Source of the DNA: a virus
Reading direction: 5' to 3' (one strand)
Virus record (IMG/VR): IMGVR_UViG_3300035670_000388
Location: 1-45,398 of that record
DNA: 45,398 nt
Under the pieces are notes generated by a model. It was not told where the DNA came from, did no database searches, and saw only the letters and a list, made by a program, of their open reading frames with translations. Position 1 is the stretch's first letter. Each line of letters begins with the position of its first letter. The position numbers were made by a program, and so were the translations under genes. This document shows positions 128 to 45,398 of this stretch, in pieces.

Positions 128-3100
128 TTCCTCAACTATCTATTGACTGGCAAGCGCAACAACTTTGTTCTGGTCAGGATATGTTATTAAATAATTATGT
201 TCTCCTTGATTGGGGCGTAGGAGCAACCTATTGGTTACGCTCTGGAACCTCATCTTTCACAAAATCTATTGATTGGGCTAACAGGCAACTATGCGATAAA
301 TTCGGTTCAGCGATATTCCAATGGGGAAAGAACGATGCTTTCTCGGCTCAAGAAATAAAACTTCTTGCTCTTACAACGGATGGTTTTGTTAAGACTTCAA
401 ATTCTGACGGAACCCTCACGGTTGATACCTCGACGTATCTCACAGCTGAAGCTGACACATTGGCTTCAGTTGTTGGAAGGGGAGATAATGTTGATGACAA
501 TGTTGCTATTAAATTTGGAACGAGTGATGATGCCACAATAACATTTGATGGAAATTCTCTCAACATCGTAGCTAATGCGGTAACAGCCACTGACGCATTT
601 GAAGTAACCGCAGGTTCAGCTCTATTTACTCTTGGCGGTGGTTCAGCGATAAGGCTTCTCGGAGCTGGGACGAAGAACCTATTTTTTGGAAACTTAGCAG
701 GGAACACAACGGCCTCTGGAAATACTGATAATATTGGGATTGGGTATTATGCGCTTGCTAATCTAACAAGCGGTGATACCAATGTCGCCATTGGAGGATC
801 AGCGGGACAGGGAATCTCCACTGGAATCGCTAACACAATGTTTGGGCATGGGGCGGGTTATGGAACAACCGGCGATTATAACGTATATATCGGAAGGGAC
901 GCAGGATTCTGGACTTCTTCTACTTCACTAAATGTTGGGATTGGATATGCCGCACTTTATGGAACTCAAAATAACTCGACAGGAGACTATAACACCGCCA
1001 TCGGAGGTTCTGCTCTTCTTTCCTTCACTTCTGGAGCAACGAATACAGCTATTGGATATGCCGCAGGGGGTTTAACAAGCACAGCAAGTGGGTGCGTGTT
1101 CCTCGGTCATTACGCAGGATATCGTCAGAACACAAGCGGCCTCCTCATTATTGACAACCAATCGAGAGCCTCTGCCGCAGTTGAGCAATCCAATGCGATT
1201 ATCTACGGTGTGATGGCGGCGGCTCCAGCAAACCAATCCATACGTTTCAACGTCGATGACTTCAATATATCCGCCGGTGATGCTGATGTCGTCCTTACCC
1301 TTGGAACAGGGGCAACGAACACGGGCGTTCTTTCGTGGATGGAAGATGAGGACTATTTCAAGTTCTCAGATGATATTTTACTTCCCGATAATGAGTTGAT
1401 TAAATTCGGAACTGGCGTAGACGCTTCCATTTACTACGATGGAACAAATCTTTTAATCAATCCTAAAGCCGCAGGGAGCGGGTATCTCAACATTCAGGGG
1501 CAGACGCTCGTTGATGACAAGATACTATTTACTCAGACCGATGGTAACGAATATATCGACAGTCTTGCTGATGGATACATGGATTACGGGGCAACAACTG
1601 GGCATCGGTTTGATGAGGATATCATTGTAGAAAGTACTCTCACTCTTGCTACCGGAAGCGTAACAGATAGTGGTTCTGAGCTTACGGTATCTGCTACGAG
1701 TACCATTGTAGACTACGGCGACAGTCTTATCGCTCATTGGAAGATGAACGACAATGCCGCATCGACGGACATAGTTGATAATATCGGGTCGTATACGGCT
1801 ACTGCTCCACGAAATACATCTTTGATGACAACAACGGGTAAGATATCTACGGCTCTTGAGTTTAATGGAACAACGGAATATGCCACCGTTAACATGAACA
1901 CAAACTTGAGTGGTTCGTTCTCGTTCTCTTGTTGGGCGAAACCTTCCGATACTCAAGAGGCGGGAGCGGACTCATGGTTCATTATGGGGTCGCGGGTTAG
2001 TTCTTATTCTAACTACTGGGCTTGTCTTTATATTTTGTCAAACACAAGTCAGTATCACTTCGCCCTCTATAACGGAAGCCAAAACCCATCTCTGCAAAGC
2101 GGAGTAAGCTATTCGGCTGGTACTTGGGTTCATCTTGTTGGGGTAAGAGATACCTCAGCTGACAAGATAAGGATTTATGTAAACGGTGATTTAAAGTTAG
2201 AAGCAACAGATGATACTGCATCTGTCCCATCATACGATTCATTCAGGCTCGGAGGGCAGGGAGATTATGACAGGCAGTTCAAGGGTGTTGTAGATGACGC
2301 AAGGGTTTACTCTAAAGCCTTAACTCAGGAAGAAATAACTGCTCTATACAATGAAGGAAACGGAACGGAAGAAGATGGAGCGGTTGGGGCCCCCGCCTAC
2401 GTTGACCTCGATGCTTCAAACTTGAGACTTCCTTCAGACTCGACAAAGATTCTTCTCGGAGCTGGATCTGATTGGGAAATAGGTTTTGACGGAACCAATG
2501 GGCTTGAAGATTTGACAAATGGAGGTATTTATAAATGGGCTATCTCAGGAACGAATCAGATTGAGTTGTCGGACGGAAAACTTGCTCCGACAACTGATGA
2601 CGATGTTTCACTAGGAGATTCAACGCATCGGTATAAGAACCTCTACCTGATGCCGACAAGTCTTTACCTCGGCACTTCTCATATCACGCAAGACTCTTAT
2701 GCTCGTAATGAAGTAAATGGACTCCTGACTGCTTGGCGTGGAATCAGAAACGCTGGGTCGGCTTTTCAACTCTTAATGGACGGAGTGGTAGACGGATTCA
2801 AAGATCAAACTGGGGTAGATACTGCAAACTCAACATACGAAGTATATGATTCGTCTAACGATTTATATTCTCCAGCTTCAACTACAGTAAGCGTAGAAGT
2901 TTTAGTAGTCGCAGGAGGCGGTGGTGGTGGTGCTTATTTTTCTGGAGGCGGCGGTGGCGGTGGCGGCGTAGTTTATGATGCCTCTTATGATGTTGCGGTT
3001 GGGGAATATACAGTAACGGTAGGAGATGGTGGAACTGGCGGAACGGCAAGTGGAGGCCCGCAGACCTATGCCACAAATGGTGAGGACAGCGTATTTGATA

Positions 3101-4026
3101 CGCTGACAGCTGTTGGAGGAGGATACGGAGGAAACGGAAACGGTGGAGCAACAAGCCAGACTCCTAATTCTGGAGGCTCTGGTGGCGGCGGTGGAGGTTA
3201 CAACGGTGGAAGTGGTGTAATTTCTGGAGCGGCAGGAACGACTGACCAAGGATATGCGGGTGGAGATTCTCAAGAGGGCTATTCAGGAGCTCCCGGGTAC
3301 GGAGCAGGTGGAGGTGGTGGAGCTGGGGCTGTTGGAGGAAATGGAACTACGACTACTGGTGGTAATGGCGGGGTTGGAGTTGCCTATGACATAGTTGAAG
3401 ACGGTTCTGATGTTTACTATGGCGGTGGCGGAGGTGGCGGGGCGTCTTCTCAAACAGCTGGAACTGGCGGCAATGGCGGAGGTGGGACAGCGGCAAACCC
3501 AGGAGGAAATGGAACAGCCAACACTGGCGGTGGAGGAGGAGGAAATCACGGGGCCGATGGTAACGGTGGCGCAGGTGGTTCTGGTGTAGTTATTGTCAGA
3601 TATTTGTCTTCCTCTTTAACCGCAACGGGAGGAACGATTACCACCGACGGAGATTATACGGTTCACAAATTTACAGCAGACGGAACTTTTGAGGTTACTG
3701 CTGGCGGTTCTGGAGTAGATAATATGACTCTTATTTCAAACGCAGTTACCGCCGAGGCCGCACCTTCAGCGGCAAGGGTAATGCTTCTAGTAGACCCTCA
3801 GGAAGCCATCACAATCAACACCGACCTGAAGGCATACGTCTCAAGGGACGGAACAAACTACACGCAGATCACTCTAGCCGATGAAGGGTCTGCCACTTCT
3901 GCTATAGATATACTCACTGGGGAAGCAACCATCTCATCAGCTTCTGGAACTTCTATGAAGTGGAAGGTTGAGACTCTTAATAATAAGGACATAGATATCT
4001 ACGGAGTGGGGGTTATATGGAAATAG
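1..4026 (+). CDS. Large composite tail fibre / adhesin (3' part; gene starts at 45167)
   Basis: This is the main part of a 1376-residue protein whose first 35 codons are at 45167-45271; the frame runs through from the other contig end. After the fibre-type N-terminus there is a repeat region at about residues 276-409 built of NIGIGYYAL / NTAIGGSALL-like units, resembling heads of trimeric autotransporter adhesins. A LamG/concanavalin-like domain follows at about 605-815 (AHWKMND, FNGTTEYATV, FSFSCWAKPS, GVVDDARVYSKALT). A very glycine-rich region at about 998-1235 resembles polyglycine adhesin tips. The C-terminus is an ordinary beta-rich stretch. Inferred role: host recognition by the tail. 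Domain boundaries are by eye; no chaperone or peptidase S74 domain is visible. Confidence 0.9.
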   Translation, partial: TVSGGTPIFQNGLSWRSPLFVNDAGKILIDETSFHINRESSGFPQLSIDWQAQQLCSGQDMLLNNYVLLDWGVGATYWLRSGTSSFTKSIDWANRQLCDKFGSAIFQWGKNDAFSAQEIKLLALTTDGFVKTSNSDGTLTVDTSTYLTAEADTLASVVGRGDNVDDNVAIKFGTSDDATITFDGNSLNIVANAVTATDAFEVTAGSALFTLGGGSAIRLLGAGTKNLFFGNLAGNTTASGNTDNIGIGYYALANLTSGDTNVAIGGSAGQGISTGIANTMFGHGAGYGTTGDYNVYIGRDAGFWTSSTSLNVGIGYAALYGTQNNSTGDYNTAIGGSALLSFTSGATNTAIGYAAGGLTSTASGCVFLGHYAGYRQNTSGLLIIDNQSRASAAVEQSNAIIYGVMAAAPANQSIRFNVDDFNISAGDADVVLTLGTGATNTGVLSWMEDEDYFKFSDDILLPDNELIKFGTGVDASIYYDGTNLLINPKAAGSGYLNIQGQTLVDDKILFTQTDGNEYIDSLADGYMDYGATTGHRFDEDIIVESTLTLATGSVTDSGSELTVSATSTIVDYGDSLIAHWKMNDNAASTDIVDNIGSYTATAPRNTSLMTTTGKISTALEFNGTTEYATVNMNTNLSGSFSFSCWAKPSDTQEAGADSWFIMGSRVSSYSNYWACLYILSNTSQYHFALYNGSQNPSLQSGVSYSAGTWVHLVGVRDTSADKIRIYVNGDLKLEATDDTASVPSYDSFRLGGQGDYDRQFKGVVDDARVYSKALTQEEITALYNEGNGTEEDGAVGAPAYVDLDASNLRLPSDSTKILLGAGSDWEIGFDGTNGLEDLTNGGIYKWAISGTNQIELSDGKLAPTTDDDVSLGDSTHRYKNLYLMPTSLYLGTSHITQDSYARNEVNGLLTAWRGIRNAGSAFQLLMDGVVDGFKDQTGVDTANSTYEVYDSSNDLYSPASTTVSVEVLVVAGGGGGGAYFSGGGGGGGGVVYDASYDVAVGEYTVTVGDGGTGGTASGGPQTYATNGEDSVFDTLTAVGGGYGGNGNGGATSQTPNSGGSGGGGGGYNGGSGVISGAAGTTDQGYAGGDSQEGYSGAPGYGAGGGGGAGAVGGNGTTTTGGNGGVGVAYDIVEDGSDVYYGGGGGGGASSQTAGTGGNGGGGTAANPGGNGTANTGGGGGGNHGADGNGGAGGSGVVIVRYLSSSLTATGGTITTDGDYTVHKFTADGTFEVTAGGSGVDNMTLISNAVTAEAAPSAARVMLLVDPQEAITINTDLKAYVSRDGTNYTQITLADEGSATSAIDILTGEATISSASGTSMKWKVETLNNKDIDIYGVGVIWK

Positions 4027-8757: not shown

Positions 8758-9282
8758 CTAAACAGCTTTTATTGTTTTAATGTAAAAATATCCATCTCTC
8801 TGTAAACTAACATTTTCTAACGCACAAACCTTCCTAGTATCAAAAGGTTTACAAATAAAGTGCCATCCCTTTGGACTTTCTACTGATTTAATTAAGTGGT
8901 TCTCTGGAATAGATTCAAGAATACTTTTAACATCTTTCGTATCAACATCTAACATAAATAGCTTTTCCCCGTAGATACAAGCAGGCTGTAATAAAGCCGA
9001 CCTCCACTCCATGTCAATATTCGTACAGAGTTCTGGGTGGTCTATTAGCTTTTTCATTAAATACTTCATAGCCTTTTCTGGGTCACGAGCATTCACGGTT
9101 TGATGAATTCTCCATTCTCCTCCTCTAGCTAAACATCTCATTTCAAGAAACTTTAAGTCTTCTTCATAATTACGGATAACTTGTCTCATACAACGATGGT
9201 CTTGATTTGTACCAGTACGCAAGAGTGCAAGAAAGACGTGTATACTTTGAAGTCTTTCTCTCTGCTCTCTATTACTTCCCAT
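8758..9282 (-). CDS. Conserved-looking phage protein (possible primase-like fold)
   Basis: The start is placed at the ATG at 9282, with GGAGA about 8 nt upstream, because the frame above it runs antisense through a tRNA gene. The 174-residue product contains NARDPEKAMKYLMKKLID, FMLDVDTKD and ESPKGWHFICKPFD. Proteins with this pattern occur in other phage replication regions. The acidic DVDTKD strand and later His are reminiscent of archaeo-eukaryotic primase-like domains, but that is only a suggestion. Confidence 0.65.
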   Translation of the reverse strand: MGSNREQRERLQSIHVFLALLRTGTNQDHRCMRQVIRNYEEDLKFLEMRCLARGGEWRIHQTVNARDPEKAMKYLMKKLIDHPELCTNIDMEWRSALLQPACIYGEKLFMLDVDTKDVKSILESIPENHLIKSVESPKGWHFICKPFDTRKVCALENVSLQRDGYFYIKTIKAV

Positions 9283-9308
9283 GAGTATAGTCTCCATATA
9301 TATTAAAT

Positions 9309-9397
9309 TGGGCACGGATGGAATCGAACCACCACTCCGTCTAGCGGAATACAGATTTACAGTCTGCTGAGGCTTAACCAATATCCCCCTCATGCCC
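9309..9397 (-). tRNA. tRNA-Tyr (GUA)
   Basis: All parts of a type II tRNA can be drawn: a 7-bp acceptor (GGGCATG with CGTGCCC, one T-G pair), a D arm GGGG/CCTC, a 5-bp anticodon stem with loop CTGTAAA giving anticodon GUA, a long variable arm (TCCG-CTAGA-CGGA) and a T arm with loop TTCGATT. The discriminator is A and no CCA is encoded. A long variable arm is normal for bacterial tRNA-Tyr. Confidence 0.95.
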
Positions 9398-14840: not shown

Positions 14841-15144
14841 TACATCCCTCCGATCGTGCAAACACTTCTTCTCTATCACGGTTTCCATTTGTTCCTCTTT
14901 TCCCTCTATTTAAGTAGAGCTGCGTTCCGATTGGAGCTAAAACGGGATGGATTACGGCAGTTTCAGGTAGGTTTGAGGCAACTTCTGATAAGATACGAGG
15001 ATAAAAAAAGTTAGGATTTTCAGCTAACTTACGAGTATGATAGGCTTGATTTTTCTGTTCTGGCTGTAATTGATACGTCCCATAATGTATCTCTTGAAAA
15101 GGAGAAAAAAACGAGGAAATCCTATTATTTCTTACGAGCGTCAA
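14827..15144 (-). CDS. Hypothetical protein, unusual or unknown start
   Basis: The segment KLAENPNFFYPRILSEVASN, followed by LPETAVIHPVLAPIGTQLYLNRG, reads like a real protein and fills a gap that would otherwise hold no gene. No ATG exists in the plausible range; a TTG at 15144 inside the end of the HTH gene is the best start, without a clear ribosome site. The stop overlaps the strong start of the next gene. An ATG in another frame (near 15085) would give only 19 residues. Confidence 0.42.
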   Translation of the reverse strand: MTLVRNNRISSFFSPFQEIHYGTYQLQPEQKNQAYHTRKLAENPNFFYPRILSEVASNLPETAVIHPVLAPIGTQLYLNRGKRGTNGNRDREEVFARSEGCNAPV

Positions 15145-15373
15145 TCTTTTTATTTTCTGGTCTGTATAATCCGCATTGTAATTCTTTACATCTTCTGTCG
15201 TATAAATCCATGAGGATATTGAGGTGCTTCCTTCGTGATCCCCATTCACCTTTAGACCAAGCATCAATACACCTCCAAGAGACATCTAACTCTTGCATCA
15301 ATTTCCACTTGGAGTAACCCATTTCTCGAAGACGATTGACTAGAGCTTGCGTCTGTGATTCCGTATATATCAC
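15125..15373 (-). CDS. HTH DNA-binding regulator
   Basis: The 82-residue protein has a helix-turn-helix of the XRE/Cro type at about residues 9-50 (LREMGYSKWKLMQELDVSWR, then CIDAWSKGEW). The start is GTG. It is the first gene after a clear promoter (15430-15457), so it may regulate the leftward genes below it or its own promoter. Confidence 0.75.
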   Translation of the reverse strand: MIYTESQTQALVNRLREMGYSKWKLMQELDVSWRCIDAWSKGEWGSRRKHLNILMDLYDRRCKELQCGLYRPENKKIDARKK

Positions 15374-15497: not shown

Positions 15498-15761
15498 TTA
15501 GACTATTTCTTGATATTTTTTTCTATCCTCTATATCGACCTTTGAGTTTAAAACTAAACAGGTAATATAATCAGTCATTTCCATCCAAGCCTCGGACTCA
15601 ATGTTATGTCTAACACAGCACTTTTTACAAACAACACTGCAAAAAGAGCAGTCCCATGAGTGATCGAAATTCATGTCCTTTGCAGCCCTATTTTCACCAC
15701 AAATATCACACACCAAAACAGGCGCAAAACCGTGTCTTTTTTTAGCGATCTGAAAACCCAT
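15498..15761 (-). CDS. Cysteine-rich zinc-binding protein, 87 aa
   Basis: CDICG, CSFC, CKKCC and a later H form at least two metal-binding pairs in residues 18-52; the C-terminal part is an acidic helix. AAGGA lies upstream of the ATG. A regulator or host-takeover protein is possible; no family recognised. Confidence 0.65.
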   Translation of the reverse strand: MGFQIAKKRHGFAPVLVCDICGENRAAKDMNFDHSWDCSFCSVVCKKCCVRHNIESEAWMEMTDYITCLVLNSKVDIEDRKKYQEIV

Positions 15762-15764
15762 TTT

Positions 15765-15971
15765 TTATGATCCTTTTTGATAAAAAAAATAGGGGTGGGT
15801 AATGAAACACCTTAGTAATATATTACCTATATATAAGGTGCGATTACCATTCCCCTGCTTTTTTTGACCCTCTGTATAGACAAACGACCTGGGTAATGCA
15901 AAAAGTGACCCCATTACCTTACCCACCCCATATTTCACACTTTTAACAATACTTTTTAAAGTATCTTTCAT
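15765..15971 (-). CDS. Doubtful 68-aa ORF over the origin-like region
   Basis: The ATG overlaps the helicase stop (ATGA) and the frame is open for 68 codons, but the protein is odd (KQGNGNRTLYIGNILLRCFI) and the DNA is dominated by GGTAAT repeats. The open frame may be accidental to a structured DNA site, or both functions may overlap. Confidence 0.3.
   Translation of the reverse strand: MKDTLKSIVKSVKYGVGKVMGSLFALPRSFVYTEGQKKQGNGNRTLYIGNILLRCFITHPYFFYQKGS
15791..15929. repeat. Iteron-like repeat cluster, replication origin candidate
   Basis: GGTAAT or its complement ATTACC occurs at 15798, 15822, 15843, 15892 and 15913, spaced 24, 21, 49 and 21 nt. GGGGTGGGTAA near 15792 is mirrored by TTACCCACCCC near 15919, and the middle holds an AT-rich run with CACCTT...AAGGTG. 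It lies directly beyond the RepA-like helicase gene. Iterons plus an AT-rich unwinding zone next to the initiator gene are typical of plasmid and phage origins. Confidence 0.45.
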
Positions 15972-17101
15972 AAGTCAATTTTGGACAAGATTTTATACTC
16001 CGCATTTTGTCCATTTCCTTTCAAATTTTCGATCTTTTTTTCCTTCAATAATTTCTTAATAATATGGGTCAAAAGGTGGCTTGTTAGGTTCAATTCAATC
16101 TCTTTTGCGTGGTGTTCTATATCTGCCTTTGTGAACGTCTGCCCCATGATAAAGAGGTGATTGATGTACTTGTGAATCTGAACCGTCTTAGTTACAGGGG
16201 TATGCTCCTGATCTAGCGTTGAAATATAAAACTCGCTATCGAATATAAGGGGGAGCGGGGAGTAGATACAGGTATAGGAGTCCTTCTCTTTTGCCCATAT
16301 AGTGCCTTTTAAGCCCTCTTTTATGTGCATGATAGAGGTACACATTGTCGATAGGTTCTTATTGCCGTAGAAGTCCTGTCCCTCACGCTTGGCCGTTTTC
16401 TGGTTCCTTTGGCCTCTGTTCTCGTGATGGAAAAAGGTAACGGAGCAGTTAAACTTGTTCATTACCAACGTCAAAAAAGTCCTAATCATAGCAACAACGG
16501 AATCCTCCTTCATATCGCCAGTACAAAGAGCGTTAAGAGGATCAAAATAAACATGGTCAATGCGCCCGTCAAATTGATACCTTGCTATATCGTTAAGTAT
16601 TCCTATACAAACAAGGTGGTTTTTCTCATTGGCAAGGTTATACCCCTGAAACTTTCCAGTTATGTGGAAGTTCTTAAAATCAAAGTTATGCTTCTCATTC
16701 ATTATCTTGATACGTTGAAGAGGCTCGTTCTGGTGTCTCTCTCCTACGACATAGATAACATTCTGCCTTCCATGTGTTTGAAGATGCCCAAAAACAGGAA
16801 GCCCATGCGCCTGTTCTAACGCTGATTGGATACCCATCATTGATTTTCCAAGCCCGTCTGTCGCATACCACATATTTAGACTATTCTTAGCGATCAAGCC
16901 CTCGACAATCATATCCACCTTGCCCGAAAAATCATGGACGCACTTTGCCAAGATATCGCCCCCCAAAGACCATCCATCTGGATCGAGAAACTTAATATCA
17001 TGTGTCGTTATTGTCGCTGTCTCTGGCGTAGATGTGGCAGTTTCTTCACGCTCTTTTTTTAGCTCCTCTAAAAACTCCTTTGCTTCTTGATAGCCATCCA
17101 T
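15968..17101 (-). CDS. RepA-like replicative helicase (AAA_25 type)
   Basis: The ATPase core has Walker A (TDGLGKS, about residues 87-93) and Walker B (VYFDPLNAL), plus FFHHENR typical of the RSF1010 RepA/AAA_25 group of hexameric helicases. The C-terminal 70 residues (FTKADIEHHAKEIELNLTSH, then LLTHIIKKLLKEKKIENL) form a winged-helix-like DNA-binding end. It is the only replication helicase in the window, so the host probably supplies polymerase. AAGGAGTCC precedes the ATG; the RHH gene and a 35-codon frame are coupled upstream. Confidence 0.8.
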   Translation of the reverse strand: MDGYQEAKEFLEELKKEREETATSTPETATITTHDIKFLDPDGWSLGGDILAKCVHDFSGKVDMIVEGLIAKNSLNMWYATDGLGKSMMGIQSALEQAHGLPVFGHLQTHGRQNVIYVVGERHQNEPLQRIKIMNEKHNFDFKNFHITGKFQGYNLANEKNHLVCIGILNDIARYQFDGRIDHVYFDPLNALCTGDMKEDSVVAMIRTFLTLVMNKFNCSVTFFHHENRGQRNQKTAKREGQDFYGNKNLSTMCTSIMHIKEGLKGTIWAKEKDSYTCIYSPLPLIFDSEFYISTLDQEHTPVTKTVQIHKYINHLFIMGQTFTKADIEHHAKEIELNLTSHLLTHIIKKLLKEKKIENLKGNGQNAEYKILSKIDL

Positions 17102-17208
17102 TAACGGACTCCTTTTTTTAAGGTGGCCTCCCCCCTTGATACGCTCGGCAGTTTCTGAGAGAGAGTCGTACCAAGTAGGGAAGGGGAGGCCGATACATTA
17201 GAAATCAT
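17101..17208 (-). CDS. 35-codon bridging ORF
   Basis: The ATG overlaps the RHH stop (ATGA) and the TAA overlaps the helicase ATG (TAATG). It contains a 9-bp inverted repeat, GGCCTCCCC (17125-17133) with GGGGAGGCC (17183-17191). The peptide (MISNVSASPSLLGTTLSQKL at the start) is not family-like; it may be a regulatory leader. Confidence 0.4.
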   Translation of the reverse strand: MISNVSASPSLLGTTLSQKLPSVSRGEATLKKGVR

Positions 17209-17384
17209 AATCGTGTCTCCTTATTGTCGGATATTAGCTTTAGGCAAGCATAACGCACAAAGCTTGATAGGGTCATTCCTGATGACATAGCGAAGTCTTC
17301 GATCATGCGCTTATGAACCTTCTCAAGCTTGATATTGATGTGATCGATCTGCTGAAGCTTCTTAGTGCCTTTTGGTCGTACCAT
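17205..17384 (-). CDS. Ribbon-helix-helix regulator, 59 aa
   Basis: IDHINIKLEKVHKRMIEDFA, then MSSGMTLSSFVRYACLKLI, follow the strand-helix-helix plan of Arc/CopG/MobC proteins, with a G-M-T-L-S turn between the helices. GAGAGG lies upstream. Such proteins bind DNA as dimers; placement directly before the helicase gene suggests control of replication-gene expression or origin binding, as CopG does on plasmids. Confidence 0.75.
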   Translation of the reverse strand: MVRPKGTKKLQQIDHINIKLEKVHKRMIEDFAMSSGMTLSSFVRYACLKLISDNKETRL

Positions 17385-19287: not shown

Positions 19288-19316
19288 ACTATAACCTATC
19301 GACTAATTAGTGTCAA
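19288..19316 (-). promoter_or_regulatory. Strong leftward sigma70-type promoter
   Basis: On the minus strand a perfect TTGACA (19316-19311), a 17-bp spacer and TATAGT (19293-19288, 5 of 6 bases) lie just upstream of the whole leftward gene block. It is the best promoter seen in the window and probably drives early transcription by host RNA polymerase. Confidence 0.8.
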
Positions 19317-27439: not shown

Positions 27440-29749
27440 ATGCTAAAGAAGCACACCGTTGGTCTTGGGATTATTTGTAAGGATGAAGTAGAACAGATTG
27501 ACCGTATCTTGGCGAAGTATTCGCAGTTCTTCGATAAGGTGCATATCACTATTACCAATCCTTCCAAGAGAAAAGAACTAGAGAAAGTCATCAAGAGCCA
27601 CGGTGCTGAATGCTCCTACTTCGATTGGATTGACGACTTCTCGGCGGCCCGTAATTTTAATAAGGCCCAGCTCAACACGACCTACATCTTCAGAATGGAC
27701 GCTGACGATGAGATTGAGAATCCTCAAGAGATTCAAGGGATTCTTGATAATGCTGCCGCTAACGATCTAAACATTATTTACTGCTACTACGTTTATAGCC
27801 GTGATGACCACGGCGTGTGCAATGCGGCGCACTGGCGTGAAACGATGTACAAGAACGATAACAATCTGTTCTGGAACAAGAAGATTCACGAGAACATCTT
27901 GGTTCGCAACACCACTGGACACAGGATTGATTTAAACGAGAAAGTTCGCATCGTTCACAAGGTTGACGCTGACCACGCCCTTCAATCAGCTTTACGAAAC
28001 ATCAAGTATTTGTTGAAAGAGTACAACCAAGATGGCGACAAGACCGATTCCCGAACTTTGGCTTATCTTGGAAGAATGTTCATGGGTGTTGGCGACTTTG
28101 AGAGAGCCATCATCTTCCTCAAGAAACACATCGAAACAAGCGGGTGGGATGAAGATAGGTATTACTCGTGGTGTTGCCTAGCTGAGATTTGTAAGCAGCG
28201 TGGTGAGTATGACGTTGCCATTGGTGCGGCAATGGAAGCGTTGCAGGAGCGTCCAGATTATCCTGATGCTTACCTTCGATTGCATGACATCTACTTTGAC
28301 ATGAAAGATTGGAAGAAGGCTCTTATCTGGGGCAAGCGTGGATTAGAGATTCCGCTCCCCAAGACATTCATGCTGATTGATCCGTCCAGTTACACATGGC
28401 GGCCCGTTCTTTCTCTTGCGTTCACTTACTTTCAGCTCTCTGATTTTGAGACGGCGATGAAGTTGCTGATGGTTGCAAAGAAGGAAGTTCCCGACCTCGA
28501 CTGGATTAAGGATAACGAGAAACTATTCGTTGAGGCGTTGGACAACAAACGCTTCGTAGAACACTTCATGTGGCTCTATCGCTACCTTGACAGCAAGAAG
28601 CACCCGAAGATGTTGAACTTGTTTGAGGTGATTCCCGATGGCCTTCGTGAGTGCGATTTATTGTTTGGGCTGAAGAATAAGTATAAAGAGCCTAAGAAAT
28701 GGGCTGACGACTCGGTCATCATTTTCTGCGGAATGTCTGCCGAGCCGTGGTCGCCGAAGATGGTTGAGACTGGTATTGGTGGTAGCGAGGAAGCCGTGAT
28801 TCACATGGCTAACAGTCTTGCACGAATCGGCTGGAAAGTGACAGTGTTCTGCAACTGCTTGGGTCAGGAAGGGAAGTATGGTGATGTTGATTACAGACAC
28901 TACACCGATTTCCACCCAAGGGATGAACATAACATACTAATCGGCTGGCGCAACAACATCTTCACCTTTGACATCAAGGCGAAGAAGAAGATTGTTTGGT
29001 TGCATGATCTACCTTCAAACATTGACTTGAGTAAGAACGGGATTGGTTGCTTTGACCGCATCGTTGTCTTGAGCGAGTATCACAAGAAGATGCTAATTTC
29101 CGCACTAGACCCGATGCCTTTAGAAGAGTTTAAGAAGTTTGAGGAGAAAATCTTCGTCAGCACGAATGGCATCAACGCTGAAGATTTCAAGGATTTGGTG
29201 ACGAATAAGAAGCCGCACCGAGTCATCTACGCTTCTAGCTACAACAGGGGATTGGAAACCATCCTCAAGATATGGCCCGAAGTGAGGAAGCAATTACCTG
29301 ACGCAGAGCTTCATTGCTACTACGGATGGCAAGTGTATGACGAGTTTGTGAGAGCTGGATTAATCAAGGAAGACGGCTGGAAGAATAAGATGGTCGAGTT
29401 GATGAAGCAAGATGGAGTGAAGGAACACGGTCGCATCGGTCATAAGGAGTTGCTCAAGGAATACTGCAAGGCTGCTGTCTTCGCTTATCCATGCACATAC
29501 GCTGGTGAGATTAACTGCATCGCTCTTACGAAGGCGATTGCGTGTGGGTGCTATCCAGTCACAAACGACTATGCGGTGATGAAGGAGCGTAATCAGTTTG
29601 GCTCCGTCGCAGATGATGAAGAAGGATTTAAGACATTGCTCATAGATGCGCTGAAGAAGTCCTACAACGATCCCATCAATCACGATTACATAGAGGCAAA
29701 CTCTTGGGACTCAGTTGCAAGGGAGTGGCATAAGGAGCTGCTCAAATGA
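27440..29749 (+). CDS. Tandem glycosyltransferase GT2-TPR-GT4
   Basis: Residues 1-180 are a GT2 domain with a DADD metal motif (87-90; FRMDADDEIENP). Residues about 185-310 hold TPR-like repeats (FERAIIFLKKHIETSGWDED, YPDAYLRLHDIYFDMKDWKK). From about 425 a GT4-type domain begins (GIGGSEEAVIHMANSLARIG) and ends with SSYNRGLETILKIWPE and GEINCIALTKAIACGCYPV. So one 769-residue chain may add two sugars. It opens the carbohydrate cassette after the capsid genes and its stop overlaps the next start (ATGA). Confidence 0.85.
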   Translation: MLKKHTVGLGIICKDEVEQIDRILAKYSQFFDKVHITITNPSKRKELEKVIKSHGAECSYFDWIDDFSAARNFNKAQLNTTYIFRMDADDEIENPQEIQGILDNAAANDLNIIYCYYVYSRDDHGVCNAAHWRETMYKNDNNLFWNKKIHENILVRNTTGHRIDLNEKVRIVHKVDADHALQSALRNIKYLLKEYNQDGDKTDSRTLAYLGRMFMGVGDFERAIIFLKKHIETSGWDEDRYYSWCCLAEICKQRGEYDVAIGAAMEALQERPDYPDAYLRLHDIYFDMKDWKKALIWGKRGLEIPLPKTFMLIDPSSYTWRPVLSLAFTYFQLSDFETAMKLLMVAKKEVPDLDWIKDNEKLFVEALDNKRFVEHFMWLYRYLDSKKHPKMLNLFEVIPDGLRECDLLFGLKNKYKEPKKWADDSVIIFCGMSAEPWSPKMVETGIGGSEEAVIHMANSLARIGWKVTVFCNCLGQEGKYGDVDYRHYTDFHPRDEHNILIGWRNNIFTFDIKAKKKIVWLHDLPSNIDLSKNGIGCFDRIVVLSEYHKKMLISALDPMPLEEFKKFEEKIFVSTNGINAEDFKDLVTNKKPHRVIYASSYNRGLETILKIWPEVRKQLPDAELHCYYGWQVYDEFVRAGLIKEDGWKNKMVELMKQDGVKEHGRIGHKELLKEYCKAAVFAYPCTYAGEINCIALTKAIACGCYPVTNDYAVMKERNQFGSVADDEEGFKTLLIDALKKSYNDPINHDYIEANSWDSVAREWHKELLK

Positions 29750-33734: not shown

Positions 33735-34071
33735 ACGGGGAAGTATTTCGTTGGTGAAAGGAAGCCTATTGGCTTACCCAGAGGTAACGATATTCCACAC
33801 CAAGGCAGGAATGGCTCGTGGTGGTTGTGTACACAATTTGAGCGACGAGTACACATGCGTTATTAACGGGATTGTTGAGTATAGGGTCGGTGAATCTACG
33901 TTCTTGTTGCAAGATGGTGATTCGATGGTGATTCCAAGGGGGATGCCTCACTACTTATTCTCTATCAGCGATTCAGTTGTTCTTGAGTGGGGAGCTACCG
34001 AGGAAGAAAAGAAAGAGAAGCATCCAGAGTTCAGGGCAATGGTGGATGAGATAAATGATCCAGCAAATTGA
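33703..34071 (+). CDS. Cupin-domain protein
   Basis: A small beta-barrel pattern is clear (GSLLAYPEVTIFHTKAGMAR, GGCVHNLSDEY, GDSMVIPRGMPHYLF) with candidate metal ligands His44 and His82. Cupins beside nucleotide-sugar genes are often sugar 3,4-ketoisomerases or epimerases; this one could equally be a binding protein. It lies between gmd and the aminotransferase, overlapping both. Confidence 0.7.
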   Translation: MLTLSSLHSDKRGSISLVKGSLLAYPEVTIFHTKAGMARGGCVHNLSDEYTCVINGIVEYRVGESTFLLQDGDSMVIPRGMPHYLFSISDSVVLEWGATEEEKKEKHPEFRAMVDEINDPAN

Positions 34072-35119
34072 GCCATCCTTCGGATTAGAGGAAGCGGAAG
34101 AGTTAAAGAGATACATTCTGTCAGGTGGTTGGGGGACAGATCATGTTTATACCCGCCAATTTGAGGATGAACTTGCTAAGTTCTTAGGCGTTAAGTATTG
34201 CTCGGTCACGACAAGCGGAACTCAGGCGCTTATCTTTGCTCTAATGTCTGTAGGAGTAAAAGAAGGAGATGAAGTTATATGTCCATCTTTGACAATGATA
34301 GCAACGCCAAACGCCGTAAGAGCGGTAGGCGCAAAACCTATATTCGTAGACGTAAACAAATATGGGGTGATGGACACACAACAGCTTTTGGAAAGGGTAT
34401 CTCCTCAAACGAAAGCAATTTTATATGTCAGCCTGAACGGAAGGGCGACGGATTTACACTCTATACTAGATCAAATTCTTGATAGAGGGATTTATCTGAT
34501 TGAGGATGCCTGTCAGTCGCTTGGGTCGAAGCATAATGGACAATATTTAGGGACGATAGGCCATATTGGATGCTTCTCGTTATCGCCGCATAAGGTTATA
34601 TCGACTGGGCAAGGGGGCTTTGCTGTCACAGATGATGAGAAACTAATCACAAAGTTCCGAAAGCTTAGAGACTTTGGACGCATTAAGGGTGGTGTAGATA
34701 TACACCCAGAGTTTGGCCTTAATGGAAAGTTCACCGACTTCCAGTCCATCATCGGCTTGGAGCAGCTAAAGAAGCTTCCTAAAAGATTGGAACAGAAGAA
34801 AACAATCTTTAAGTTGTATAAAGATATATTAGGAAACAGCATAAACTTTATAAAGAATGATGAATTCGTAGTTCCGTGGTTTATGGATGTGTATGTTCCA
34901 AATCCAGACTCTTTAAGGAAATACCTCGACTCTGAAGGAATTGGTTCAAGGAGGATGTATCCCCCATGCCACACTCAGGGTTGTTACAAAGACTCGGCAG
35001 TTCTACCGATGACAACGCTTTTATCGAACATGGGTATCTGGCTACCGTCAAGCCCTCATTTAGAAGAGCGTCAGATTACGCACATTTGCGACAGGATAAA
35101 ATGGTTCATCGGAAAATAG
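34055..35119 (+). CDS. DegT/PerA-like sugar aminotransferase
   Basis: The PLP lysine is Lys180 in FSLSPHKVISTGQGG, with Asp151 in LIEDACQSLG and TSGTQALIFAL at 53-63. This is the DegT/DnrJ/EryC1/StrS family. Given gmd two genes upstream, the likely substrate is GDP-4-keto-6-deoxymannose, giving GDP-perosamine; the family cannot by itself fix the sugar. 354 residues is normal. Confidence 0.85.
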   Translation: MIQQIEPSFGLEEAEELKRYILSGGWGTDHVYTRQFEDELAKFLGVKYCSVTTSGTQALIFALMSVGVKEGDEVICPSLTMIATPNAVRAVGAKPIFVDVNKYGVMDTQQLLERVSPQTKAILYVSLNGRATDLHSILDQILDRGIYLIEDACQSLGSKHNGQYLGTIGHIGCFSLSPHKVISTGQGGFAVTDDEKLITKFRKLRDFGRIKGGVDIHPEFGLNGKFTDFQSIIGLEQLKKLPKRLEQKKTIFKLYKDILGNSINFIKNDEFVVPWFMDVYVPNPDSLRKYLDSEGIGSRRMYPPCHTQGCYKDSAVLPMTTLLSNMGIWLPSSPHLEERQITHICDRIKWFIGK

Positions 35120-45167: not shown

Positions 45168-45398
45168 TGGCTTTTGCTCTTTCTTCTATAGGTGTTCCAA
45201 TAGATAAGACGGGTCTAACCACGACCACTCTCGATCTCCGCTACCTCAAGCTCGACCAGACCACGCCGCAGACGGTGAGCGGTGGAACTCCAATATTCCA
45301 GAATGGTCTATCTTGGAGAAGCCCTCTTTTCGTTAATGATGCTGGAAAAATTCTTATTGACGAAACATCATTTCATATAAATAGAGAATCGAGCGGAT
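45167..45398 (+). CDS. Tail fibre, 5' end (continues at position 1)
   Basis: The ATG at 45167 overlaps the preceding stop (TAATG). The encoded start (MAFALSSIGVPIDKTGLTTT), followed by LRYLKLDQTTPQTVSGG, is a fibre N-terminus seen in other phages. Reading through the contig join gives 1376 residues. From 45272 the bases are the same as from position 1. Confidence 0.9.
   Translation, partial: MAFALSSIGVPIDKTGLTTTTLDLRYLKLDQTTPQTVSGGTPIFQNGLSWRSPLFVNDAGKILIDETSFHINRESSG
45272..45398. repeat. Right copy of the 127-nt contig-end repeat
   Basis: This stretch is identical, base for base, to positions 1-127. Confidence 0.93.

Follow-up and report, generated by a model that had tools for sequence, protein, structure and literature searches.

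A candidate replication origin with its own repeats behind a RepA-like helicase gene of a tailed phage

The 206-bp stretch at positions 15762-15967, which runs from the stop codon of a RepA-like helicase gene to the next well-supported gene, is proposed to be the replication origin of this tailed phage or the core of that origin, with a probability of about 0.62. The stretch stands out by its repeats, its AT content and a position that is kept among related phages. In the mechanism that we infer, RepA made from the adjacent gene would assemble on the GGTAAT repeats, most likely reading them via its own predicted C-terminal winged helix. The AT tract would then open, RepA would load as a ring helicase, and host replication proteins would take over from a start in the gap, supplying primer and polymerase. 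Since each such phage would have its own repeat word at this same place, the initiator and its sites would drift together.

The repeat array and its surroundings

The window, i.e., the whole stretch of DNA that was analyzed, is a 45,398-base phage contig whose two ends (1-127 and 45272-45398) form an exact direct repeat of 127 bases. Because 127 is also a usual k-mer length of assemblers, this repeat probably reflects circular closure at ~45,271 bp and not a biological repeat, so that the phage genome is probably complete and circularly closed at about 45.3 kb; the record is labelled 'linear' by the tool. Minus-strand genes occupy the block between 8.4 kb and about 19.28 kb, and from 19.58 kb onward the genes lie on the plus strand. 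In front of the minus-strand block, near the minimum of the GC skew, is a minus-strand promoter-like site at 19288-19316 (TTGACA-17-TATAGT), the best match to sigma-70 in the 15 kb scanned. The tRNA-Tyr gene at 9309-9397 overlaps the start of an ORF at 8758-9393, and this stretch is 91% identical in the related phage G005 (L015 10938-11036), far above the surrounding DNA. A glycosyltransferase pair and an aminotransferase, possible tools for surface-sugar modification, are encoded amid the structural genes (27440-29749 and 34055-35119).

Within the minus-strand block, a small RHH-like gene (17205-17384) is followed by the RepA-like helicase gene (15968-17101), the repeat stretch, an 87-aa gene (15498-15761) and an HTH-like gene (15125-15373), and then by genes for an exonuclease, a Sak4-like annealing protein and a RusA-like resolvase. 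The repeats thus adjoin the helicase gene, with its stop at 15968, and an RHH protein is encoded upstream, both as the initial annotation had it; the Pfam matches of the RHH-like protein (DUF6290, E 0.0014; NikA-like, E 0.0039) are both under the curated cut-off. The 377-aa RepA matches PF13481 (E 8.2e-17, 61.9 bits against a cut-off of 27) and contains an AAA_25 motor of the RecA fold with a Walker A motif. The 87-aa protein has six Cys and received no family assignment in family and Pfam searches; its gene has a codon score of -0.021 and a Shine-Dalgarno-like AAGGA ahead of its ATG. No PF00476 or PF00136 polymerase was found in the window.

GGTAAT or its complement ATTACC occurs five times within 121 bp, at spacings of 24, 21, 49 and 21, exactly where the initial annotation had placed the copies. 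Copies 1 (15798-15803) and 4 (15892-15897) lie on the plus strand within TGGGTAATG, and copies 2 (15822-15827), 3 (15843-15848) and 5 (15913-15918) on the minus strand. Copy 2 occupies the apical part of a hairpin, hairpin A, beside an alternating AT tract; copy 3 pairs with copy 1 in the same hairpin, and copy 5, within CATTACC, is complementary to copy 4. Read in the RepA sense, the orientations are forward, reverse, forward, forward and reverse. The copies are therefore short (6-9 bp), of mixed orientation and not strictly direct. Their spacings correspond to 2.29, 2.00, 4.67 and 2.00 helical turns, which does not bear out the proposed phasing near multiples of two turns. The 11-bp inverted repeat that had been described as bordering the array is exact, pairing 15792-15802 (GGGGTGGGTAA) with 15919-15929 (TTACCCACCCC), but taken alone it is at chance level, as the window contains five such pairs within 200 nt versus 3.15 expected.

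The array itself is well above chance. When the whole window was dinucleotide-shuffled 100 times, five copies of any 6-mer within 139 nt occurred on average 0.03 times per window, and only two of the shuffles had any, whereas the real window has the GGTAAT cluster and four cluster entries in a glycine-rich gene at 3190-3530. When the 250 nt after the RepA stop were considered, 0/300 shuffles reached five copies of a 6-mer. The gap ranks 10th among 1131 repeat windows of the phage, and all nine higher-ranking windows lie at 2881-3481, in the glycine-rich gene. It is the strongest repeat cluster of the phage outside this glycine-rich tail gene. The glycine-rich repeats at 3190-3530, the sole stronger clusters of the window, belong to a large plus-strand gene ending at 4026.

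The gap is also AT-rich, as noted earlier, with 66% AT compared to 55% in the record. It contains two alternating AT runs, where 0.10 would be expected: TATATATA at 15828-15835, a candidate unwinding element, and ATATAT at 15818-15823. Rfam gave no match at the gathering threshold. As in iteron origins, several short repeat copies are found in a non-coding stretch beside a putative initiator gene, together with an AT-rich region.

Arrays behind repA in related phages

All relatives were found via other genes or via RepA, never via the repeats. Single-protein and profile scans of viral contigs returned no close relative of RepA except in G004, none was found in genome contigs, and tblastn against phage records gave no match. 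Searching with the large terminase (TerL) led to six loci. RepA was sought in four records of TerL relatives and was found in one, G004, whose RepA is distant (27% identity to that of the window); within the loci L003 and L007, as opposed to their whole records, RepA had no match. G001, the nearest relative by TerL, has no AAA_25 helicase and carries PolA at its left end. Comparison of G001 (L002 578-2290) with the window (15968-17101), the two sharing 79-89% identity in TerL, portal and major head protein, shows a replication module that was swapped as a whole. The major head gene of G004 (L006 10100-10959) is broken up into three overlapping parts that differ in frame, which probably stems from sequencing errors.

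A search with the Sak4 gene added G005, L021, L022 and the Manatee Spring phage MW202524; MW202718 and MW202743, from the same site and with the same RepA as MW202524, were left out as separate phages. An AAA_25 helicase is present in eight of the nine records searched, the exception being G001. This gave six phages, including the window, that encode a stand-alone RepA-like helicase, with 15-27% identity to RepA of the window. The genes just upstream of RepA differ among the relatives, with HTH_17 in two, a cell-wall hydrolase in one and a weak ERF-like match in one. This variation argues against the special role that the initial annotation had given to the RHH protein.

Four of the five other phages, and thus five of six with the window, have their own repeat array behind the RepA stop. 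Within 250 nt of this stop, there are five copies of GTATGACA and seven of ATGTCA in L022 (each 0/300 shuffles), four of AGTACCA in MW202524 (0/300) and, in L021, four of AGACTG (10/300) and three of CAGTCTCA (4/300). The repA gene of MW202524 is oriented against the adjacent operon, and the AGTACCA repeats, with a long hairpin in their midst, are still at its 3' end (L019 1484-1757). In G004, five copies of CACTG fall within 86 nt, a density reached in 3/1000 shuffles and at one other place in the 42 kb examined; at 6-mers its gap is not significant (61/1000 shuffles, rank 82/1047 for k=6). The gap of G005 has no repeat excess (best z 1.1, rank 276/1090), although this phage is syntenic with the window and has the closest Sak4 (73%). 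Alternating AT runs at least six long are found in four of the six gaps, where 0.04-0.10 would be expected in each, and in three of the four array-bearing relatives.

To the motifs themselves no common sequence corresponds: distant blastn of the repeat sequence against phage records gave weak short matches only (best E 0.8), and with their motifs not conserved the arrays lack direct homology in sequence. The expectation that relatives would keep the repeats thus failed for their sequence and held for an array at this position. The relatives' motifs were spotted by eye and tested afterwards; placement was assessed with a motif-free repeat score using overlapping windows. Random placement of the gaps reached the observed summed z in 32 of 200,000 trials for the six phages and in 74 when the window was excluded; capping the scores at 8 lowered these counts to 4 and 27. 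By this score, the gaps rank 1/228 in L021, 1/337 in L022 and 8/366 in MW202524, against a background that for these three consists of 9-15 kb loci. Ranks vary with k-mer length, and the array of G004 is visible at 5-mers only, a k chosen after inspection of the sequence. A looser ranking, which admits windows overlapping the gap, places G004 at 1/292 with a window mostly inside repA; the stricter 82/1047 was used. Taken together, the arrays of the relatives support the location that had been proposed for an iteron-like origin beside the helicase gene, while the helical phasing and the part of the RHH protein fall away.

Terminator, operator, small gene or inserted element

The main rival, or a second function of the same DNA, is that transcription is terminated or attenuated where repA ends; as the explanation of the stretch, we consider this rather unlikely. 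Hairpin A (15790-15857) is terminator-like in both directions, with the T tract TATTTTTTTT for minus-strand and CTTTTTTT for plus-strand transcripts; it would stop minus-strand transcripts after repA and plus-strand transcripts coming the other way, whereas a second hairpin and the outer repeat, as alternative pairings, could tune read-through into the recombination genes. Like a Rho-independent terminator, it has a GC-based stem followed by a T run, and among the T-tract hairpins of the window it ranks first on the minus strand (-25.0 kcal/mol, the next reaching -20.1) and second on the plus strand (-24.2 kcal/mol). The minus-strand RNA of the gap folds far better than its shuffles (z -3.9, 0/200), the outer 11 bp can displace the terminator stem by pairing with each other (-45.6 kcal/mol in a forced fold), and promoter-like sites follow at 15490-15430. 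Hairpin A moreover accounts for the neighbourhood of four of the five copies as stem arms. This counts against an origin, as do the gap of G005 without excess, the weak signal of G004 at 6-mers and the PolA of that phage, the rank of only 8/366 in MW202524, the lack of a conserved motif and the GC skew, suggested earlier as a check, which does not turn at the repeats but has its minimum near 19.3 kb at the divergent promoter.

However, a comparable T-tract hairpin in the RepA sense is missing from the gaps of three of the five relatives, while repeats are present in four of the five. The two remaining hairpins are weaker (-12.3 in L022 and -16.1 in MW202524), and folding of the gap RNA is unremarkable in G005 (z 0.24) and L021 (z -0.15), with -2.58 in L022. 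A terminator also leaves unexplained why the same word appears in two separate hairpins, and it does not explain the AT tracts. In favour of the origin, it accounts for differing words at a constant place, which a terminator does not. Both functions can coexist, by analogy with pRN1 as described in PMC4234260, and transcription of repA may also stop at hairpin A and its T tracts.

The repeats might instead bind a repressor or activator that controls the downstream genes, the HTH protein (15125-15373), the RHH protein and a host factor being candidate binders, and we regard such an operator as improbable. Small DNA-binding-like genes do lie nearby, promoter-like hexamers are present at 15490-15430, and inverted repeats are common in operators. 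But none of the 24 promoter-like matches listed falls inside or just downstream of the array on the minus strand, in a scan that is weak because 26.5 matches would be expected by chance. The relatives share RepA and the array but not the flanking regulators, and operators are normally found at promoters and would not be expected right behind one particular gene whose surroundings differ from phage to phage. It is very unlikely that the 68-codon ORF covering the repeats (15765-15971, minus strand) is a real small gene, translationally coupled to repA, with the repeats as a by-product. Its start overlaps the RepA stop in ATGA, its 67 open codons have a p of about 0.003 in this composition, and it would close a gap in a compact operon; yet its codon score of -0.229 resembles that of non-coding frames (-0.241, SD 0.127) and not that of genes (0.075, SD 0.115). 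It has no family above cut-off (one Pfam match is sub-threshold) and no relative in viral contigs, and the related phages have repeats with no shared ORF there. The frame stays open for longer than expected but is, as initially annotated, probably not a gene. A MITE-like inserted palindromic element, bounded by the 11-bp inverted repeat, would explain the perfect terminal 11-mers and the TAT on either side. We give this reading hardly any weight: the phage has no second copy, neither the inverted-repeat pair nor the hairpin pattern has any match in viral contigs (0 each), and 11-bp pairs are at chance level.

The predicted repeat reader and comparable replicons

For the proposed origin, the candidate reader of the repeats is the C-terminal part of RepA (residues about 301-374, encoded at 15980-16201 on the minus strand). 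In the full structure model, which was built on five sequences and has a mean pLDDT of 72.1, this part shows the winged-helix order helix-strand-helix-helix-strand-strand, and the domain predicted alone has the identical order of elements (pLDDT 77.9). Its nearest folds are mostly winged-helix proteins, namely Fur, LmrR, linker histone, ORC and MCM, with Z of about 8-9 and a Foldseek E no better than 0.017. Given that the winged helix is a common fold and the confidence of the prediction moderate, we regard the domain as a plausible DNA-binding part and no more. Mean pairwise identity between the phages is 0.20 in the C-terminal part versus 0.25 in the motor, a small difference that fits a changing specificity. 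The motor is closest to RSF1010 RepA by both sequence and predicted fold. A profile of six homologues matches RSF1010 RepA (1g8y) at E 4.3e-11, and the modelled motor domain superimposes on 1g8y with Z 22.7 and an rmsd of 3.0 over 213 residues, the next, unrelated fold matches (RadA and DnaB) reaching Z 21.3 and below.

SaPI and SCCmec elements differ from this tailed phage with its RecA-fold, RepA-like helicase, since the SaPI and Cch2 helicases presumably belong to another fold class. The resemblance lies in the layout: in SaPI Rep/ori and SCCmec Cch2/ori, as described in PMC7581432, iterons that follow the helicase gene directly are read by the C-terminal domain of its product. The phage likewise has short repeats directly downstream of its helicase gene, and a private array is found there in five of the six phages; the DNA-binding domain at the C-terminus of the helicase is predicted, with moderate confidence. 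Being likened to SaPI by position and design alone, the phage system would work like it and is not assigned to it as a member. According to PMC4234260, the iterons of RSF1010 are read by a separate protein, RepC, and its priming is done by RepB', whereas the phage RepA carries a predicted winged helix of its own. For the archaeal plasmid pRN1, the same source places the origin in a stem-loop no more than 166 bp from the stop codon of ORF904, a helicase gene whose product has a C-terminal winged helix, with a terminator hairpin beside it and with a kept position but an unconserved sequence. The candidate phage origin similarly lies behind the helicase stop, includes a terminator-like hairpin and has kept its position without its sequence. 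Unlike the phage, pRN1 encodes a primase-polymerase with an SF3 helicase and has a stem-loop without iterons, and by the fold z-scores given above for the window, G005, L021 and L022 no stem-loop of the pRN1 type is kept across the relatives.

The alpha protein of phage P4 is described in the same source as a single protein that binds repeats with a winged helix and unwinds DNA. A one-protein design of this kind is proposed for the phage RepA with its predicted winged helix; P4 alpha is a primase-helicase fusion, whereas RepA, with 377 aa, has no primase family match. PMC6356513 describes the Sfi21-type origin (PER element) of streptococcal phages as a non-coding, origin-like stretch in the replication module. 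The phage stretch is comparable in this respect, while its proteins and repeats differ from those of the Sfi21 type. An origin beside the helicase gene is supported by the experimentally studied replicons, because SaPI, Cch2 and pRN1, as covered in these sources, have theirs at the same spot.

Tentatively, and with somewhat less than even odds, we suggest that an RSF1010-type RepA became a one-protein initiator in a lineage of tailed phages. As its C-terminal winged helix would read private iterons right behind its own gene, helicase and origin would travel as one swappable cassette, each origin being invisible to other phages. In the open-access papers that we searched, we found no description of a phage RepA-like helicase with such an origin. 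If true, a helicase family known from RSF1010, where it needs a separate RepC, would act as its own origin reader, and phages infecting the same cell could each replicate from private iterons without cross-talk. In uncultivated phages, origins are seldom pinpointed, as the repeats have no sequence in common; should the rule to look right behind the RepA-like helicase gene hold, origins could be proposed for many metagenomic phages.

Queries with RepA matched 12, 51 and 67 phage records, of which nine further ones, chosen for diversity and not randomly, were opened. No repeat excess (z at most 2.2) was found in Lebethron, PMBT14, Serbin, P744, Shocker, DS1 and the Wolbachia phage WO. Six of these seven records carry an annotated DNA polymerase, the exception being WO, for which the annotation covered was that of a part of the record; in the five primase-helicase phages with an annotated polymerase, and likewise in DS1 and WO, neither a gap nor repeats follow the helicase gene. 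The records of G005, L021, L022 and MW202524 had no match to PF00476 or PF00136, and those of Javan629 and FP_Lugh had none in a search restricted to PF00476. Arrays thus mostly, but not strictly, go with the absence of a PF00476/PF00136 polymerase among the records surveyed, several of which may be fragments. G004, which encodes a PF00476 polymerase (PolA) and still has a short array, rules out the polymerase as a clean dividing line. Streptococcus phage Javan629 and Faecalibacterium phage FP_Lugh, phages of Gram-positive hosts with a primase/helicase fusion, have the top-ranking repeat windows of their loci behind this gene, in gaps of 467 bp (z 21.1, rank 1/308) and 266 bp (z 13.0, rank 1/309), respectively. 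These dense arrays (L029 7195-7661 and L030 7171-7436) are candidate origins in phages whose hosts are culturable.
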